From the NCBI GenBank assembly GCA_018268315.1, contig JAFDWU010000002.1, positions 597,153 to 661,152 on the forward strand: a stretch of 64,000 nt of DNA. Reading direction: 5' to 3'. The notes under the pieces were generated by a model. That model was not told the DNA's origin. It made no database searches and saw nothing but the letters and a program-made list of their open reading frames with translations. Position numbers and translations under genes: made by a program. The stretch is from Armatimonadota bacterium (GTDB lineage Bacteria > Armatimonadota > Fimbriimonadia > Fimbriimonadales > Fimbriimonadaceae). Positions 3,487 through 40,741 of the stretch are shown in pieces (the stretch's first letter is position 1; every line of letters begins with the position of its first letter).

Positions 3487-4847
3487 CAAAGCTGGAATTC
3501 AGGCGATGCAAAGATCAACCGGGCGACCGCCTGCGAGGTTGCGTTTGCATTGTCCACGCCGAGCCGCCCGCCAGAGGCGTGCTCGGCGGCCTGTCTTAGC
3601 TGTTGAATCTTCGAATCAGGAAGCGGGGCATCGAAAATCGAAACCAGCTTGCGCGCAACCCCAGAGGGAGTCGGATCCTCGCGATACAGATCGTATGCTT
3701 GAATTTCGAGCAAGGGGCGCTGGTCTCGGCCGCCAAACAAGCGATCTGCCCACGCGATGCGTTCCACCATCGTTGCCGTAGTAACCCAAGCCTGGCCGTG
3801 TTCCCAGCCGGAGACATCCGGCGGATACATGAGTTGCATGCCCATGCCCTTGAGAGCCTGATTCATCGGCTGAATCCTTCGGATGTTGCCGGCCTCAAGG
3901 AGGTAGCCCCCAAGACCAAGCTGGCGAGCCGAAGCCACGACGAAATCAACGGGAGACTTGTAGATGGCTCGCTCTGCCTTTTCAGAATAGAACTCGTCAG
4001 ACGTCATGATCGCGCGAAGCAGCGCCTTGAGCTCGAGGCCGCTGTCGCGAAATACGCCCGCGAAGTGGTTAACCACTTCAGGCGAGGGGTCGGGGTAGAC
4101 CATCATCTTCCAAAGCTTTTGGGTAATGAACTGGCTTGTCCGCGGATTGTCGCAGAGCATGTTTATGATGTCTTCGCCACCGAAATTGCCGGTTCGGCCA
4201 AAGAACGTCTTCTCGCCATAATCGTGAGCGCGCTCGTTGTATCGAAACGCGGGATAGCCCGGATTTGCCTGGTTCCGCTTGAGGGTCCAGCCGGTGAAGG
4301 CCCTCGCTGACTGCTGGATGTCCTGCTCCGAGTAATTCCCGATCCCGAGCGTGAACAGCTCCATCACTTCTCGAGCAAAGTTCTCGTTCGCCTTGCCCTT
4401 GACGTTGTATTCGTTATCCAGCCAGAAGATCATCGCCGGATCCTGGCTAACTTGCATCAGCAGGGCGCGGAAGTTGCCCGTGGCATTGGTGCGCAGGGTT
4501 TCATTCTGCGTGACCATCATTCCCGGCGCTTTGACCTTTTCTGCGCTGGTTGCGAAGTGGTTGTGCCAGAACAGGGTCATGCGCTCTTGCAGCGGCCGCT
4601 GAGTGCGCACCAGCCTTGCGATCCACCAGCCGATGGCAATCGGCATATTCAGTTTCTTATCGACAGGGGCAATGCCGTTAATGTCGAGGTTAAACCCCTC
4701 GTCTTGCTTGTCGTAGGCAAGGAGCCGCTCTACGGCGCTATTGATCCCACCGCCACCAAGATAGAACTGAACCTCTGCCTCACTAGCCCCCAAACCAAAG
4801 CGCCGAAGTAGGTGAGCGCACTTTTCTTGATCACTTCGCAAAGCCAT
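3483..4847 (-). CDS. DUF1800 family protein
   Basis: 454 residues, complete. Family hallmarks seen: HLLRRFGLGA at the N-terminus, FWHNHFATS near residue 90, REVMELFTLGIGNYSEQDI followed by ARAFTGW, and PDVSGWEHGQAWV in the C-terminal third. DUF1800 proteins are common in Planctomycetota, Armatimonadota and related groups, usually beside a DUF1501 sulfatase-like gene. No DUF1501 partner is present here and no Tat or Sec signal is obvious, so its location is unclear. Biochemical role not established. Confidence 0.9.
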   Translation of the reverse strand: MALRSDQEKCAHLLRRFGLGASEAEVQFYLGGGGINSAVERLLAYDKQDEGFNLDINGIAPVDKKLNMPIAIGWWIARLVRTQRPLQERMTLFWHNHFATSAEKVKAPGMMVTQNETLRTNATGNFRALLMQVSQDPAMIFWLDNEYNVKGKANENFAREVMELFTLGIGNYSEQDIQQSARAFTGWTLKRNQANPGYPAFRYNERAHDYGEKTFFGRTGNFGGEDIINMLCDNPRTSQFITQKLWKMMVYPDPSPEVVNHFAGVFRDSGLELKALLRAIMTSDEFYSEKAERAIYKSPVDFVVASARQLGLGGYLLEAGNIRRIQPMNQALKGMGMQLMYPPDVSGWEHGQAWVTTATMVERIAWADRLFGGRDQRPLLEIQAYDLYREDPTPSGVARKLVSIFDAPLPDSKIQQLRQAAEHASGGRLGVDNANATSQAVARLIFASPEFQLC

Positions 4848-33240: not shown

Positions 33241-34908
33241 ATGGCGGAAGCCCACCAGAATCCCTGCGACGAACTTCTCGACAAACTCTCTACCCAAATC
33301 CCCAGTGATCCGAGGGCGCAAAACACCCTTTCGGCGCTGAAGGACGCCGTCGAGCAAGAACGCCGCAAGCAAGCGGAGCAAGATGAACTCCTCGCCTCCT
33401 ACCAAGAGGCTTACGAGAAGCTCAGCTCTCCTGCCTTTCGCATCGGTGTCTTCCTGCGGTGGGAGCCGCGAGACAAGGGTGACGACCTCGCCCTCATCGC
33501 GGTTGGCGAGCAGGAATTCCTTGCCGAAGTCGATCCGCTCTTGGAGCGTGGCCAGCTTAGCGCGGGCTCACAGATACGAGTAAACGAGGCTTACGTCGTC
33601 GTAGGCATCGTTCAGGCATCGGATCGGGGCTCAATTGTGAAGGTTTCGGAAGTTCTGCCTGATGGCCGGTTGCGGCTTGGCGGAGATACGCCCGGCTCGG
33701 ATGGCCGCGTGATTACGCGAAGCGATTCACTGAAAGACGCCACGATTCAGGCAGGCGATGAAGTTCGGATCGACCCCAGCGGGCACTTCGTGGTCGAAGT
33801 ATTCGAGAAGAGCGACGCACGCGATTATTTCATGGAAGAGATTCCCGTGCTGCCGTGGGAGAAGATCGGCGGGCAGGACGAGGTGATCCAGATGATCCGG
33901 GAGACGATCGAGCAGCCTCTGCTCCACCCGGAACTGTTCAAGAAGTTTGAGAAGAAGTCGGTGAAGGGCATTCTGCTTTACGGCCCCCCGGGCTGTGGCA
34001 AAACCCTTATCGGCAAGGCCACCGCTTACAACCTGACCCAGGAGTACTCAAAATTGGTCGGGCGAGATGTGAAGGAGTACTTCATGGCGATCTCCGGCCC
34101 TAAGATTTTGAACATGTGGCTGGGTGAGACGGAGCGTATTGTGCGGGAAATCTTTGCCACCGCCCGGGAGAAAGCCAAGGAAGGGCGCCTGGTCTTCATC
34201 TTCATGGATGAAGCGGAATCGGTCCTGCGAACCCGCTCCAGCGGACGCTGGCTGAACATCAGCAACACGGTGGTACCTCAGTTCTGCGCCGAGCTTGACG
34301 GCCTGGTCTCGCTGGATAACGTGGTGCTGATGCTCACGTCAAACCGGCCGGACTACATTGACCCCGCGATTTTGCGTCCGGAGCGAATCGACCGCAAGGT
34401 GAAGATCGGACGGCCCGATAAGGAAGCCACCCACAAGATTCTCGGCATCTACATGCACGAGCAGCTCCCTTACGACCCGGCGTTGCTGGCACGTTACGAC
34501 GGGGAGCCGGAATGCGCGCGGAAGGAGTTACTTGACGCGCTGACGGATCGGCTTTGGAAGCGGAATAAGGAGACTGAGTTCCTGCGGGTGTTCCTGCGCA
34601 ACGGCTCTAGCGAGACGCTGTATCAGAAGGACCTCATTTCAGGCGCGTTGCTTAAGTCGATCATCGATCGCGCGAAGGACTTTGCCATCAAGCGCGCCAT
34701 CGCCGAGCCAAGCGTGGAGCACGGCTTGCGGTTGGAGGACCTGCTTCAGGCGGCGGATCGCGAGTTCAAGGAGAACGAAATCTTCCCGAAGGGCGATACC
34801 CAAGAGGATTGGCTGCAGCTTCTAGATTACGCCCCGGAGAATGTGGCGAGCGTGAAGCCGATTGGACGTAATCGCGGCGCGGAGATCACACAGAAGAGCG
34901 TTATCTGA
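33241..34908 (+). CDS. arc: ARC/Mpa-type AAA ring ATPase
   Basis: 555 residues. N-terminal coiled coil (about 28-62), tandem OB-type beta domains (about 65-195) and an AAA module: Walker A GPPGCGKT (248-255), Walker B FIFMDEAESV (DE at 323-324), second region SNRPDYIDPAILRPERID, as in proteasome-forming ATPases. The C-terminal proteasome-docking tail (GQYL in Mpa) is absent; the protein ends in QKSVI. Pore region reads MWLGETE. No pup, dop, pafA or prcBA gene is in the window. It is 35 bases downstream of the CBS-GGDEF gene and probably co-transcribed with it. Confidence 0.9.
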   Translation: MAEAHQNPCDELLDKLSTQIPSDPRAQNTLSALKDAVEQERRKQAEQDELLASYQEAYEKLSSPAFRIGVFLRWEPRDKGDDLALIAVGEQEFLAEVDPLLERGQLSAGSQIRVNEAYVVVGIVQASDRGSIVKVSEVLPDGRLRLGGDTPGSDGRVITRSDSLKDATIQAGDEVRIDPSGHFVVEVFEKSDARDYFMEEIPVLPWEKIGGQDEVIQMIRETIEQPLLHPELFKKFEKKSVKGILLYGPPGCGKTLIGKATAYNLTQEYSKLVGRDVKEYFMAISGPKILNMWLGETERIVREIFATAREKAKEGRLVFIFMDEAESVLRTRSSGRWLNISNTVVPQFCAELDGLVSLDNVVLMLTSNRPDYIDPAILRPERIDRKVKIGRPDKEATHKILGIYMHEQLPYDPALLARYDGEPECARKELLDALTDRLWKRNKETEFLRVFLRNGSSETLYQKDLISGALLKSIIDRAKDFAIKRAIAEPSVEHGLRLEDLLQAADREFKENEIFPKGDTQEDWLQLLDYAPENVASVKPIGRNRGAEITQKSVI

Positions 34909-35667: not shown

Positions 35668-35709
35668 TAATACCGAGGTTCCGCCGCGAAAAGTTACGAA
35701 CAGAACGAA

Positions 35710-35739
35710 AATGGCCCCTGCGATACCGCAGAGGCCATT
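35710..35739 (-). terminator. Terminator of rplA
   Basis: AATGGCC-T-CTGCG and CGCAG-G-GGCCATT form a 12-bp-class stem with GTAT loop, followed by TTTTCGTT on the minus strand, 23 bases past the rplA stop codon. Confidence 0.85.
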
Positions 35740-35761
35740 CTTCTTTTGAATCCGAAAGCGA

Positions 35762-36478
35762 TTAGCTTGCGAACTTGGAGGCGATCGTCGGGTCGACTTT
35801 GATGCCGGGGCCCATCGTTGCGCTGAGGGTCACCGTTTCAACATAGCGGCCCTTCGCGCTGGAAGGCTTCGCGCGCAGAAGCGCGCCCATCGCGGCCTTG
35901 AAGTTCTCTTGAAGCTGCTCGTCGGTGAAGCTCACTCGCCCAATGAGCAGGTGGACAACGCCTTCCTTCTCCGCGCGGTACTCCACGCGGGTAGCGGCCT
36001 TGATTTCCTTGACCGCGGTAGCGATCTGGTTTGTCACCGTGCCGTTCTTCTTGTTCGGGGTTCGTGGGCCAAGCAGCTTTCCGACCTTACCGATCTGCGG
36101 GGCCATCTCTTCCGTAGCCAGCAGCACGTCGAAATCGCGGAAGCCGTTCTGAATCTTGGCGATCAGGTCTTCAGCGCCGACCGTGTCCGCGCCCGCCTTC
36201 TCTGCCTCATTGGCCATATCGCCTTTTGCGAGAACGGCGATGCGGCGCACCTTACCCGTTCCGTGCGGAAGGTTGGTGATGCCGCGAACGTTCTGATCGC
36301 CCTTCTTGGGGTCGATGCCGAGCTTGACGGCAAGGTCAACGCCTTCAACGAACTTGGCGGAAGCGGTCTGCTTAACGAGGGTAATGGCTTCTTCCACACC
36401 CAGCGGCTCTGTATTAGCCTTTTCCAGCAGCGCGGTAAAGCGAGGCGAATGCGCCTTCTTGCGAATGTTCTTTCTCAA
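35762..36478 (-). CDS. rplA: 50S ribosomal protein L1
   Basis: 238 residues, usual length. L1 forms the L1 stalk on 23S rRNA and often represses its own mRNA. Seen: GIDPKKGDQNVRG, NLPHGTGK, AKGDMANEAEKAGADTVGAEDLI, GKVGKLLGPR-PNKKNGTV and KPSSAKGRYVETVTLSATMGPGI. The start is a TTG with GGAGGAAAA directly upstream. The gene stands alone: no rplK, rplJ or rpoB is beside it, and its leader carries a candidate L1-binding hairpin. Confidence 0.96.
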   Translation of the reverse strand: MRKNIRKKAHSPRFTALLEKANTEPLGVEEAITLVKQTASAKFVEGVDLAVKLGIDPKKGDQNVRGITNLPHGTGKVRRIAVLAKGDMANEAEKAGADTVGAEDLIAKIQNGFRDFDVLLATEEMAPQIGKVGKLLGPRTPNKKNGTVTNQIATAVKEIKAATRVEYRAEKEGVVHLLIGRVSFTDEQLQENFKAAMGALLRAKPSSAKGRYVETVTLSATMGPGIKVDPTIASKFAS

Positions 36479-36490
36479 TTTTCCTCCAGT

Positions 36491-36523
36491 GGTGCGGACG
36501 CTTGCCTAAAGGCAGCTCCCACC
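36491..36523 (-). promoter_or_regulatory. Candidate L1-binding leader hairpin
   Basis: On the minus strand GGTGGGAGC ... TCCGCACC folds as one long bulged stem with a TTTA loop: GGTG/CACC, GGA/TCC, GCT/AGC, GCC/GGC pair in order. The GGTGGGAG string is the conserved L1-binding sequence of 23S rRNA helices 76-77. The hairpin ends next to the ribosome-binding site of rplA, so autorepression is likely. Confidence 0.6.
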
Positions 36524-36547
36524 GAAAATCAGTCCATTATGGCAGAT

Positions 36548-38545
36548 TCAAAGATGCGACTTCCACCAGTTCAGGATTTCATGCAGCCGGTGCAACCGAA
36601 GATCAGGGGGCCCGCTTCGGCTCAGTCCGTGATAGGAGTTCAACGGGTACCGCACAAATCGCGCCTCAACATTCTGCGCTTTTAGGGCATAGAACACCTG
36701 CTCGCTTTGCTCAATATTGCATCGCAGGTCGCCTTCGCTGTGGATGATGAGCATGGGGGTATCGACCTTGTCGAAATAGGCAATTGGCGACTGCTTCCAA
36801 AGCTTTTCGATCTTCGAAAGATCGCCAAAGGGATAGGCGCCCCAAAAACTCTCTTTGACCAAAGGCATGTCGCACGTGCCTCCCAGGCTGACGAGGTTTG
36901 ACACGCAACGGTCGGCGATCGCCGCCTTGAAGTCTTTGCAGTGACTTACAATCCAGTTCGTCATATATCCTCCGTAGCTTCCACCCATCACGCCCATCTG
37001 CGCTTTGTTGATATACGGTTGGCTCTGCATCCACTTGATCACCGCCTGCATATCGGCCCAGTCGCGATCTCCCCAACTTGCGTGAATCGCCTTGCAATGC
37101 GCCTCTCCGTAGCCCTTTGAACCGCGAGGATTGCTGAATACCACGACATAGCCAGCGGCCGCCAGCACTTGGAATTCATGGAAGAAGGTCCAGCCATATT
37201 GGGCCTGTGGGCCACCGTGTATCTCGAGCACGGCTGGGTATTTCTTCGATGCATCGAACTCGGCGGGCTTCATCACCCATGCTTGAACCTTCCAGCCATC
37301 CTCAGCTTCCAGCCACATTTCTTCCGGCTCGCTAACCTTCACGCTGTCATGGAATTCCTTGTTAAAAGCGGTCAGCTTCTGGTCCTTGCCGCTGGCGAGA
37401 TCAAAGCAGGCCACTTCGCCCAGGGTTGTTCCATCGGCGGTAACCAGCGCGAGTTTGCCCTGAGCCATGTTGCCAAGAATGTAGTTGCGCGCGCCACTGG
37501 TGAGCTGCTTATGGCCACCCTTGATGTCGAACTGCCATACATGGGTTGCGCCGTGCCACCCAATCGACGTGTAAATGCTTTGGCTATCAGGAGCCCAAAT
37601 GACGATTGGGCTCGACGAGGCCTCCTGCGTATCGGCGGTGGTACCGCCGGCCAGGCAGAAGTCGGTTTTCGCCGATAAGCTCTCAGCGATACCGCCATCC
37701 GCGGGCACGATGAACAACTGGTAATTCCCATCCGGCCAAGTATCGGCATTAGGATCGCAAGCGAACGCGATCCATTTACCATCTGGCGACCATCGTGGCG
37801 AAGACTTAACGCCCTTGGGTACGCCGTTGACCTTGGTAACGTTCCCCTTAAGGTCGACCCGGAAAAGCTGATCATTCGCAGGTTGGAACAGCGGCCGTTT
37901 TTCCGCCGGATGCCGAATCACGAGTTCTGTCGAACTAGGCGCCCAACTGAAGTCATAGAAATCCACTTCGCTGCACCCGGCATAGAGCTGACGATGCTCG
38001 CCAGTGGCCACGTCCAGTAGGTGAACTGAGAAGCGCTCGGCCAAGAAGTAGCCATCGCCATCGAAGCGATACCAGACAGACTCGGTGACCCTTGGCGGGA
38101 CGCTGCTGCCCTTCGTCTCCCGCTCCTTCCTTGCCGCCTCGGTGTTTGATTCGGCAGCCGGCCGGAACATGAAGGCAATCCATTTGCCATCGGGACTCCA
38201 TTGATACTCGCCGATGCGGCCTTCGGGCAGCTTGGAAAGCTGTGCAGCTTCACCGCCACTGGCGTCGATCGTGTAAAACTGAGCGCCCGGCTTCTTCCTA
38301 TCGGAGACGAAGAGAATCTTCTTTCCATCGGGCGACCACCGCCCTCCACCCGCACTTGATTCTCCTTGGGTCCATTGCTTGAGCCCGCCTTTGAGGTCCA
38401 CGCTCCAAAGATGGTTGAGGTAGGTGTTCTTTTCCGTAATCTGCTTACGGGAAAAGAGGATCTGCTCGCCGTCCGGCGAAATCTGTGGATCGCCAACGAA
38501 AACGAATTTGAGCAAGTCTTCGGGCGTGATAAGACGCTTTGCCAT
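36548..38545 (-). CDS. S9 family peptidase (acylaminoacyl-peptidase-like), copy A
   Basis: 665 residues. An N-terminal WD40-like beta-propeller (PDGEQILFSRKQIT, SPDGKKILFVSDR, SPDGKWIAFMFRP repeats) is followed by an alpha/beta-hydrolase with the nucleophile motif GGSYGGYM and a His in NSYHGLSRSGPPDLR. It should cleave short peptides after an aminoacyl or proline-type site in the cytoplasm; no signal peptide. Its closest relative is the next gene upstream, to which it is very similar throughout. The start is the ATG at 38545. Confidence 0.93.
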   Translation of the reverse strand: MAKRLITPEDLLKFVFVGDPQISPDGEQILFSRKQITEKNTYLNHLWSVDLKGGLKQWTQGESSAGGGRWSPDGKKILFVSDRKKPGAQFYTIDASGGEAAQLSKLPEGRIGEYQWSPDGKWIAFMFRPAAESNTEAARKERETKGSSVPPRVTESVWYRFDGDGYFLAERFSVHLLDVATGEHRQLYAGCSEVDFYDFSWAPSSTELVIRHPAEKRPLFQPANDQLFRVDLKGNVTKVNGVPKGVKSSPRWSPDGKWIAFACDPNADTWPDGNYQLFIVPADGGIAESLSAKTDFCLAGGTTADTQEASSSPIVIWAPDSQSIYTSIGWHGATHVWQFDIKGGHKQLTSGARNYILGNMAQGKLALVTADGTTLGEVACFDLASGKDQKLTAFNKEFHDSVKVSEPEEMWLEAEDGWKVQAWVMKPAEFDASKKYPAVLEIHGGPQAQYGWTFFHEFQVLAAAGYVVVFSNPRGSKGYGEAHCKAIHASWGDRDWADMQAVIKWMQSQPYINKAQMGVMGGSYGGYMTNWIVSHCKDFKAAIADRCVSNLVSLGGTCDMPLVKESFWGAYPFGDLSKIEKLWKQSPIAYFDKVDTPMLIIHSEGDLRCNIEQSEQVFYALKAQNVEARFVRYPLNSYHGLSRSGPPDLRLHRLHEILNWWKSHL

Positions 38546-38688: not shown

Positions 38689-40686
38689 TTAAAGGTGCTT
38701 CTTCCACCAGTTCAGGATTTCGTGCAATCGGTGCAGGCGTAGATCCGGCGGTCCCATGCGGCTCATGCCATGCGAGGTCGTTTGCGGATACCGAACGAAG
38801 CGCGCCTCAACGTTCTGCGCCTTCAGCGCCATGAACACCTGCTCGCTCTGCTCAATATTGCATCGTAGGTCGCCCTCGCTGTGGATGATGAGCATCGGGG
38901 TATCGACTTTGTCGAAGTAAGCAATCGGCGACTGCTTCCAAAGCTCCTGAATCTTGGCGATGTCGCCAAAGAAGTAGCCGGGCCAATAGCGATCGCTCAC
39001 CAACGGGAAGTCGGAAGAGCCCGCCATGCTGACAAGGTTCGAGACGCAGCGGTCGGTGATTGCCGCCTTGAAGTCCTTGCAGTGGCCCACGACCCAGTTC
39101 GTCATGTAACCGCCGTAGCTGCCGCCCATCACACCCATTTGGCCCGGATGGATGTAGGGCTGGTTCTGCATCCACTTTGTGGCTGCCTGGATATCGGCCC
39201 AGTCGCGATCTCCCCAGTTGCCGTGGATTGCCTTGCAGTGCGCCTCGCCATAACCCTTCGAGCCGCGCGGATTCGTGTAGACAACGACGTAACCTGCCGC
39301 TGCCAGTACCTGAAATTCGTGGAAGAAGGTCCAACCGTATTGGGCGTGAGGGCCCCCGTGTATCTCAAGAATTGCGGGATAGCGCTTTGGCTCCAGATAG
39401 TCAGTCGGCTTGATGACCCAGGCGTGAACCTTCCAACCGTCTTCCGCCTCAAGCCAGACTTCTTGCGGCTCGCTGACCTTGACCTCTTCATGAAACGCCT
39501 TGTTGAGGTGGGTGAGGGTGGTCTCCTTGCCCGACTTCACGTCGAAATATCCAACCTCGCCCAGATGCGTGGCGTCACTGACAACGTAAGGGATTTTGCC
39601 CTTCGCAACACTGCCAAAGCCAAAGGTCTTCTGATCGCTTGTGAGCTGCTTGTGGCCTCCTTTCAGGTCGAATTGCACGATGTGGGTGGAACCGTGCCAG
39701 CCGATGGCGCAAAAGAGGCTTTTGCTATCTTCGGCCCACTCAATCGTTGCCCCGAATGCCGCATCTTTGGAATCGCCCAGTGTGCTGGCAGTCATGCAGT
39801 AGTCACTTTCCGCGGAGAGGCTCTTTGCTTCGCCACCCTCCGACGGGACAATCCACAGCTGGCTGTTGCCGTCGCCCCAATTAACCGCATGGGGATCACC
39901 AGCATACGCGATCCACTTGCCGTCCGGCGACCATCGCGGGGAGCCCTTCGAGCCCTTCGGCAACCCTTTTAGCTGCCACGCCTTGCCGGCAAGATCGACG
40001 CGGTAGATCTGGTCGTTCTCATCATCAAAGAGCGGGTGCTTGTTGGCCGAATGCACCACCACCACTTCTTTAGAATCTGGCGACCAGTTGAAGTCATAGG
40101 CATCAGTGTCGCTCGCGCCGGCATAAAGCTCCTTGTGCTCGCCGGTAGCGACATCCAGAACGTACAGCGCGTAGCGCTCCATCATGAAGTAGCCGTCGCC
40201 ATCCAGTCGGTACCAGGCCGACTCGGTGACGCGAGGCGGAGTGCTAAGCCCCTTAGCCTCTCGATCCTTTTTCGCCACCTCAGTGTTATGCGCGGCTGCC
40301 GGCCTGAAAGTAAAAGCGATGCGCTTACCATCCGGACTCCATTGATATGCCCCGATTCGGCCCTCAGGAAGCTTGGAAAGCTGCACGGCTTCGCCTCCGC
40401 CCGTGCCCATTAAATAGAATTGCCCGCCCGGCTTAATGCGATCCGATACAAACAGAATCTGCTTGCCATCGGGAGACCATCGCCCACCGCCTGCGCTCGA
40501 TTCGCCGGACGTCCACTGCCTCAGATGCCCCTTCAAGTCAACCGACCACAAATGAGTTAGGTAGCTGTTCTTCTCCGTAATCTGCTTGCGGGCAAACAGG
40601 ATCTGCTCGCCATCGGGCGAGATTTGGGGATCGCCGACGAACGTGATCTTGAGCAAGTCTTCCGGGGTAATGAGGCGCTTGGGCAT
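38689..40686 (-). CDS. S9 family peptidase (acylaminoacyl-peptidase-like), copy B
   Basis: 665 residues from the ATG at 40686 (MPKRLITPEDLLKI), which aligns with copy A; another ATG four codons upstream is less consistent. Same propeller plus hydrolase layout, with GGSYGGYM and TTSHGMSRMGPPDLR. The two copies are nearly colinear, with most differences in the propeller, so one duplication event and later specificity change are likely. Confidence 0.93.
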   Translation of the reverse strand: MPKRLITPEDLLKITFVGDPQISPDGEQILFARKQITEKNSYLTHLWSVDLKGHLRQWTSGESSAGGGRWSPDGKQILFVSDRIKPGGQFYLMGTGGGEAVQLSKLPEGRIGAYQWSPDGKRIAFTFRPAAAHNTEVAKKDREAKGLSTPPRVTESAWYRLDGDGYFMMERYALYVLDVATGEHKELYAGASDTDAYDFNWSPDSKEVVVVHSANKHPLFDDENDQIYRVDLAGKAWQLKGLPKGSKGSPRWSPDGKWIAYAGDPHAVNWGDGNSQLWIVPSEGGEAKSLSAESDYCMTASTLGDSKDAAFGATIEWAEDSKSLFCAIGWHGSTHIVQFDLKGGHKQLTSDQKTFGFGSVAKGKIPYVVSDATHLGEVGYFDVKSGKETTLTHLNKAFHEEVKVSEPQEVWLEAEDGWKVHAWVIKPTDYLEPKRYPAILEIHGGPHAQYGWTFFHEFQVLAAAGYVVVYTNPRGSKGYGEAHCKAIHGNWGDRDWADIQAATKWMQNQPYIHPGQMGVMGGSYGGYMTNWVVGHCKDFKAAITDRCVSNLVSMAGSSDFPLVSDRYWPGYFFGDIAKIQELWKQSPIAYFDKVDTPMLIIHSEGDLRCNIEQSEQVFMALKAQNVEARFVRYPQTTSHGMSRMGPPDLRLHRLHEILNWWKKHL

Positions 40687-40741
40687 TCTGCAAGTCATAC
40701 CCCAGTTAGCGGGCGATTACCGGACTGGTAACCTGAAATCG

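Follow-up and report, generated by a model that had tools for sequence, protein, structure and literature searches.

Does a ribosomal protein gene that stands apart from its operon partner keep a control site of its own, and if so, where did that site come from? The question is raised by the stretch of DNA analysed here (the window; 64,000 nucleotides within contig C2 of a 2.8 Mb Armatimonadota genome), in which rplA, encoding ribosomal protein L1 (uL1), is preceded by a hairpin that resembles the L1 target in 23S rRNA. An earlier note on this DNA had described a stand-alone rplA with a private L1-binding leader and had proposed regulatory rewiring after the loss of operon linkage. Comparison across the order indicates that the hairpin is very probably an L1 autoregulatory operator, to which L1 would bind and thereby repress its own synthesis, and that it is a clear new example of a site of known type, not a rewired circuit.

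The rplA locus

The gene lies on the minus strand (35762-36478), starts with TTG and encodes 238 amino acids that score 268.6 bits against TIGR01169 (cut-off 216.3) and match solved L1 chains with a best E-value of 4.5e-65; its closest named relatives come from Fimbriimonas and other Armatimonadota assemblies, with a top identity of 72-73%. rplK is absent from the window and lies on a different contig of the same genome (G000:C1:417472-417678), in agreement with the description of rplA as stand-alone.

Directly 5' of rplA, the minus-strand RNA reads GGUGGGAGCUGCCUUUAGGCAAGCGUCCGCACCAC-U-GGAGG-AAAA-UUG. The hairpin occupies positions 36489-36522 of the minus strand, with GUGG at 36522-36519 and CCAC at 36492-36489, and its interior, read 5' to 3' after GUGG, consists of GA, an upper stem-loop whose first base is G and whose last is C, and G-N5-A, followed by CCAC. 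The earlier note drew the hairpin as GGUG paired with CACC, over the minus-strand letters GGTGGGAGCTGCCTTTAGGCAAGCGTCCGCACC (36523-36491). A hairpin is indeed present there, and the drawn register is that of the minimum-energy fold of the window sequence (-18.5 kcal/mol), whereas the comparative register pairs GUGG with CCAC (-15.9 kcal/mol); across the family, the comparative fold costs on average 1.2 kcal/mol over the minimum. The Shine-Dalgarno sequence GGAGG (36483-36487, minus strand) begins one base past the 3' arm of the hairpin, and 10 nt separate the hairpin from the start codon.

Further upstream, CATAAT (36536-36541, minus strand; 13 nt from the hairpin) may represent the -10 box of a private promoter; a consensus promoter scan at this gene found no promoter. 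An intrinsic-terminator-like stem-loop 3' of rplA (35708-35741, minus strand), which is weak evidence alone, being the only one in the stretch against a shuffle mean of 1.9, suggests a single-gene transcript.

The surroundings of the gene include a peptidase-like gene upstream on the same strand (36548-38545), which forms a tandem with a second, similar S9-type peptidase gene (38689-40698), and, closely downstream, a proteasome-ATPase (Mpa/ARC-like) gene (33241-34908). A conserved rplA neighbourhood was considered and rejected: in none of the 14 family loci tested did the vicinity of rplA contain the Mpa-like ATPase, the S9 peptidase or the gene that follows rplA in the window. That the hairpin is kept across the family while these three neighbours are not was counted in favour of the operator reading.

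Conservation and architecture of the leader hairpin

The motif letters by themselves do not establish a hairpin. The window contains a single instance of the pattern GGTGGGAG-N3-30-CACC (0.16 expected), and 14 of 100 shuffles contain one or more, so that the motif alone was rejected as proof; the fold z-score is -1.9 to -2.1, and GAYGCTTCCNNCTC has one other match in the genome against two for a reversed control pattern, as expected by chance. What decides that the hairpin is real is its conservation before rplA. L1 was sought in 61 genomes (the genome carrying the window, 36 of the same family and 24 of the same order) and found in 56, and in 52 of these 56 the motif GUGG[G/C/A]AG, or a close variant, with a downstream CCAC lies directly 5' of rplA. 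This includes all 34 leaders of the window's family (f1), the very conservation whose failure had been named beforehand as the refuting outcome, and 18 of the 22 other genomes of the order. Motif and 3' arm were located by pattern, the arm being chosen by hand in L017, L021, L023, L024, L026 and L156, the last of which has a diverged 3' arm. The motif is absent before rplA in four of the 22 non-family genomes (L148, L150, L154 and L165), all of which carry rplK directly upstream. The observation of a leader hairpin before rplA is thus confirmed.

Alignment A1 contains 47 of the 52 hairpins and omits five, of which three are near-duplicates and two are odd, while alignment A2 and covariance model R1 (29 sequences, 40 positions, 9 pairs) rest on 29 of the 52, picked among those with a five-base N strand, which biases R1 towards the five-base form. 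In these 29 hairpins, 94.3% of cells in the comparative structure are paired, 26 cells are doubly changed against 8.4 in shuffles (none of 500 as high; slid versions at most 13), and the covariation score reaches 0.284 against 0.069 when shuffled (0 of 500; slid at most 0.130). Covariation is confined to the upper stem; the GUGG/CCAC helix is almost invariant and, since hardly anything varies there, has no covariation support of its own. Counted over the same 29 of 52 hairpins, the architecture of two helices around an asymmetric internal loop is present at the rplA leader. Shine-Dalgarno-like letters occur within 12 nt past CCAC in 51 of 52 cases (33 of 34 in the family, and all 18 hairpin-bearing leaders outside it).

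As a side observation, in 18 of the 34 family leaders four or more of the five bases that precede A-CCAC could pair with GUGGG (all five in 12), as could those of three of the 18 others, in raw counts. Such a competing fold may free CCAC beside the Shine-Dalgarno sequence.

Specificity and reach of the covariance model

Searched against the whole genome carrying the window, R1 returned the rplA leader as its sole significant match (E 9e-5; next 0.79 and 2.1), at positions 36525-36484 with 31.6 bits. Across 80 public rplA loci (822 kb), it gave 52 matches at E<=1, of which 49 precede rplA, three precede rplK and none lie anywhere else, hairpin-gene distances being taken from extrapolated start codons (-20 to 120 nt for rplA, -20 to 200 nt for rplK). 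Matches occur in 50 of the 80 loci, including 40 of the 69 outside the Armatimonadota loci L032-L042, and 39 of the 49 rplA-proximal ones lie outside Armatimonadota; ten public Armatimonadota loci (L032-L041) may repeat training sequences of R1, and 30 of the 80 loci have no match. Sites proximal to rplA are found in Actinobacteria and Firmicutes loci, and two Clostridia loci carry sites at both genes, a placement that agrees with that given for L1 sites in the available part of PMC10931766.

At a stricter threshold (E<=0.5), a match is found in 49 of the 61 genomes, the scan missing motif-bearing family leaders such as G003, G028, G032 and G034. In E. coli tufB-rplL and 23S stretches (7.5 kb), R1 gives 13 matches, the best of which, at the rplK leader, is weak (9.9 bits, E 0.19), and the 23S L1 site is not scored by R1 in E. 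coli or in the relatives. The comparison with known leader models suggested by the earlier note came out negative: at the gathering score, Rfam reports no ribosomal leader in the window, only two tRNAs, and around the hairpin gives a chance match (E 9).

Likeness to known L1 sites

In E. coli 23S rRNA, GGUGGGAG lies at 2120-2127 and CCACC at 2174-2178, within what we take to be helices H77/H78 (2120-2178). The proposed link between GGTGGGAG and the L1 recognition site is borne out by this stretch, in which GGUGG-GA-[GGC..GCC]-G..A-CCACC follows the part order of the rplA leader; by eye, GUGG-GA-[G..C] and A-CCAC are common to the rplA hairpin, E. coli 2120-2178 and the 23S rRNA of the relatives. 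The two differ in that the 3' strand of the internal loop measures 12 nt in the rRNA and mostly 7 nt in the rplA mRNA, and in H78, which is long in E. coli and a tiny hairpin in many genomes of the order. The E. coli rplK (L11 operon) leader match, GGGAGCCUCUCAGAGGCGUUAUUACC, shares part order and loop spacing (GG-GA-[GCCUCU CAGAGGC]-G-UUAUU-A-CC), but precedes rplK of a two-gene operon and ends 19 positions before the start codon. With its parts matching both the 23S site and the E. coli rplK leader, the hairpin has the L1-site architecture that had been claimed for it.

According to the available part of PMC10931766, the L1 binding region of 23S rRNA comprises H76-H78, and L1 sites precede rplK in Proteobacteria, where the E. 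coli site controls both genes by coupling, precede rplA in Actinobacteria and Cyanobacteria, and precede both genes in Firmicutes, T. thermophilus and T. maritima, among others. The statement that rplK usually carries the site is not supported by this placing. Published rplA-proximal operators resemble the present hairpin in being irregular stem-loops with an internal bulge just 5' of rplA; as far as that part of the paper goes, the window's family differs in that its rplA is unlinked from rplK, that a single site was found and none at rplK, and that most relatives have a promoter-like element of their own before rplA (PMC10931766).

Proposed mode of control

Free L1 in excess over its 23S rRNA sites would bind the rplA leader at the asymmetric internal loop, the predicted target, where GA faces G-N5-A and which is flanked by the GUGG/CCAC helix on one side and the variable upper stem on the other. 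Since the 3' arm of this helix reaches the Shine-Dalgarno sequence, the bound hairpin would block 30S entry and L1 synthesis would stop; given the Shine-Dalgarno-like letters close behind CCAC in nearly all leaders, predicted binding would cover the ribosome site. Newly made rRNA would then titrate L1 off the leader and lift the block.

In the family, rplA probably forms a transcription unit of its own, with a leader that would be scarcely more than the operator. Of the 34 family genomes, 29 have a GGTA[TCA] element in the 50 nt that precede the hairpin (3.5 expected from shuffles), 27 of them at 14-24 nt; in non-family genomes it occurs in four of 18 (L158, L159, L162 and L166) against 2.1 expected. 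The window belongs to the five family members without the GGTA form and has CATAAT in that place. From the position of this promoter-like element, the transcript probably starts a few bases 5' of the hairpin.

Break-up of the rplK-rplA operon

None of the 34 family rplA loci has rplK within the fetched flanks. In sister-family genomes, rplK adjoins rplA in 19 of 22, with the hairpin between the two genes in 15 of the 19; of the remaining three loci, one (L147) lies at a contig edge and two (L162, L166) have the genes apart. In a tree of 55 L1 proteins (one of 56 rows, too short owing to a wrong start, was dropped), four changes of the separated label are needed, and the starred branches force at least two. 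Within a single genus of family f2, the genes adjoin in some genomes, adjoin with a TATAAT-type element upstream of the hairpin in L158 and L159, and are separated in L162 and L166, and the hairpin is retained in all three states, which are possibly stages of operon break-up.

As the sister-family hairpin lies mostly between the genes, the site appears to have stayed with rplA and gained a private promoter without having moved from rplK; together with the f2 series, this position indicates that the site belonged to rplA before the two genes came apart. What changed after separation is the promoter and rplK, and the predicted operator near rplA was kept.

Two other readings of the rplA hairpin have to be weighed against this. 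A 5'-end stem-loop of a general kind, stabilising the transcript or adjusting ribosome entry with no binding of L1, would suit a transcript that probably starts just before the hairpin and a hairpin that abuts the Shine-Dalgarno sequence, but it would leave unexplained why conservation of letters falls on the lower helix and the internal loop, the upper stem varying freely, why the arrangement turns up at rplA or rplK of other phyla and at no other place in the 80 loci searched, and why the hairpin resembles the L1 region of 23S rRNA; we regard it as very unlikely. Slightly less likely still is the rewiring proposed earlier, whereby a site carried by rplK moved to rplA, or arose there anew, once the operon had broken. 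E. coli and one Sphingomonas locus do have the site at rplK, but the intergenic hairpin of the adjacent sister-family genomes, the predominance of rplA-proximal public matches, most of them outside Armatimonadota, and its retention through all three states of the f2 genus argue against such a transfer. The earlier interpretation is partly supported.

A different hairpin before rplK

A site before rplK that governs both genes, as in the E. coli L11 operon, was not found in the 34 rplK loci of the window's family. The search for the same hairpin at rplK that the earlier note had suggested came out negative by the model: R1 gives seven matches at E<=5 in these loci, none of them within an rplK leader. 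In 32 of the 34 family rplK leaders, GCUUC(C/U) occurs within 200 nt of the rplK start, usually in a hairpin loop (rplK loci are numbered L133-L194; the motif is absent from L136 and L193). In the genome carrying the window, this hairpin with its GCUUCC-type loop lies at G000:C1:417205-417238 (L168, 7206-7239). Its stem is variable and its 10-nt loop conserved, the loop being mostly C/U/A followed by GCUUCCCUC and closed by A-U, and lies 23-34 nt past a -10-like box in 22 of 32 cases.

In 30 of the 32 hairpins (two duplicates removed), arms from the same genome pair better than swapped arms (mean -8.96 versus -6.60, sd 0.45, 0 of 500), and a hand-drawn stem with a bulge has 23 doubly changed cells versus 10.2 (0 of 500), a version slid by +1 still having 15; RNAalifold found no structure in alignment A3. 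The arms vary and the loop is conserved, unlike a palindromic DNA operator, in which the arms would be expected to be kept. Alignment A3 and model R2 rest on 22 of the 32 hairpins, selected by eye. R2 matches the rplK leader in 27 of 34 family loci at E<=1, 22 of which are training loci; two of its 29 matches are not at an rplK leader, and 23 rplK loci of other families gave no match. In whole genomes, its strongest matches lie at family rplK genes, with weaker scattered ones down to E 2e-4 (G014, off rplK). At the gathering score, Rfam reported only a tRNA in five rplK loci, and the loop as a mimic or antisense of 23S rRNA was dropped, since complementarity near E. coli 1036-1045 occurs in G007 and is absent in G009. 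To our knowledge, no L11-type leader has been described before. A literature search, with subscription papers mostly outside its reach, returned no rplK-leader element of such a kind, and a word search of the available parts of two leader-discovery papers (PMC7247131, PMC11109978) found neither rplK nor L11.

We tentatively propose, as a possibility well short of an even chance, that rplK and rplA have parted into separate RNA switches, the L1 operator at rplA and a new leader at rplK that would be read by L11 or another stalk-base protein. That L1 instead acts in trans on rplK, repressing it by way of a diverged leader site, is considerably less probable: a faint GUGGGC...GGACCAC stretch, unscored by R1, occurs in a single rplK leader (G001, L180), against the lack of any R1 match in the 34 family rplK leaders at E<=5 and the different hairpin motif borne by 32 of them. 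The rplK leader is a more novel lead than the rplA hairpin.

As a separate observation, a likely proteasome beta gene and a Dop/PafA-like gene, both identified by eye, are located some 6-8 kb from rplK in the genome carrying the window (L168, 13268-15672), a distance that the rplK stretches of the relatives, at about 4-5 kb, do not span.

A shortened L1 stalk in 23S rRNA

A search of the 61 genomes with the pattern TAGGTRGGAGN{18,48}CYACC found a stalk of 34-36 bases (e.g., TAGGTGGGAGCTTCGGCACCAATGGAACACCACC), compared with 61 bases in E. coli, in 38 genomes (23 of 37 in family f1 and 15 of 24 others). There was no match in 21 genomes, including that carrying the window, whose 23S gene ends at a contig edge, and only unrelated matches in two. 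In G007 and G009 the deletion corresponds to E. coli 2132-2158, and H78 retains only a few base pairs in L213 (about 3640-3690) and L217 (about 1590-1630). rplA is present in 37 of the 38 short-stalk genomes and was not found in G019. One assembly holds a full-length stalk (G016:C61:2844-2904), the only full form among the 61 genomes, beside a truncated copy, and this is possibly a contaminant contig. In a scan of 205 genomes of the phylum, short and full forms occur in different families among the matches listed, the reduced H78 recurring in several families outside the order.

The available part of PMC12641178 describes gradual H78 loss in the CPR class ABY1, with der and rplA kept. The shortened H78 of some CPR classes shares with the present form a stem of few pairs and the retention of rplA, and differs in that the present case lies in Armatimonadota, the string "armatimonad" being absent from the main text of that paper (PMC12641178). 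A literature search for the L1 stalk in Armatimonadetes found no paper.

Concluding remarks

R1 provides a compact model for detecting L1 sites near rplA and rplK across phyla, where Rfam gave no match to the present hairpin. Within the order, it is rplA, and not the operon, that the predicted L1 operator follows: the hairpin persisted through at least two changes of linkage in the L1 tree. If the proposal for rplK were true, its leader would be the first L11-type leader and one shared control would have been split into two. With a distinct structured leader before rplK, how L11 keeps step with an unlinked L1 becomes directly testable.
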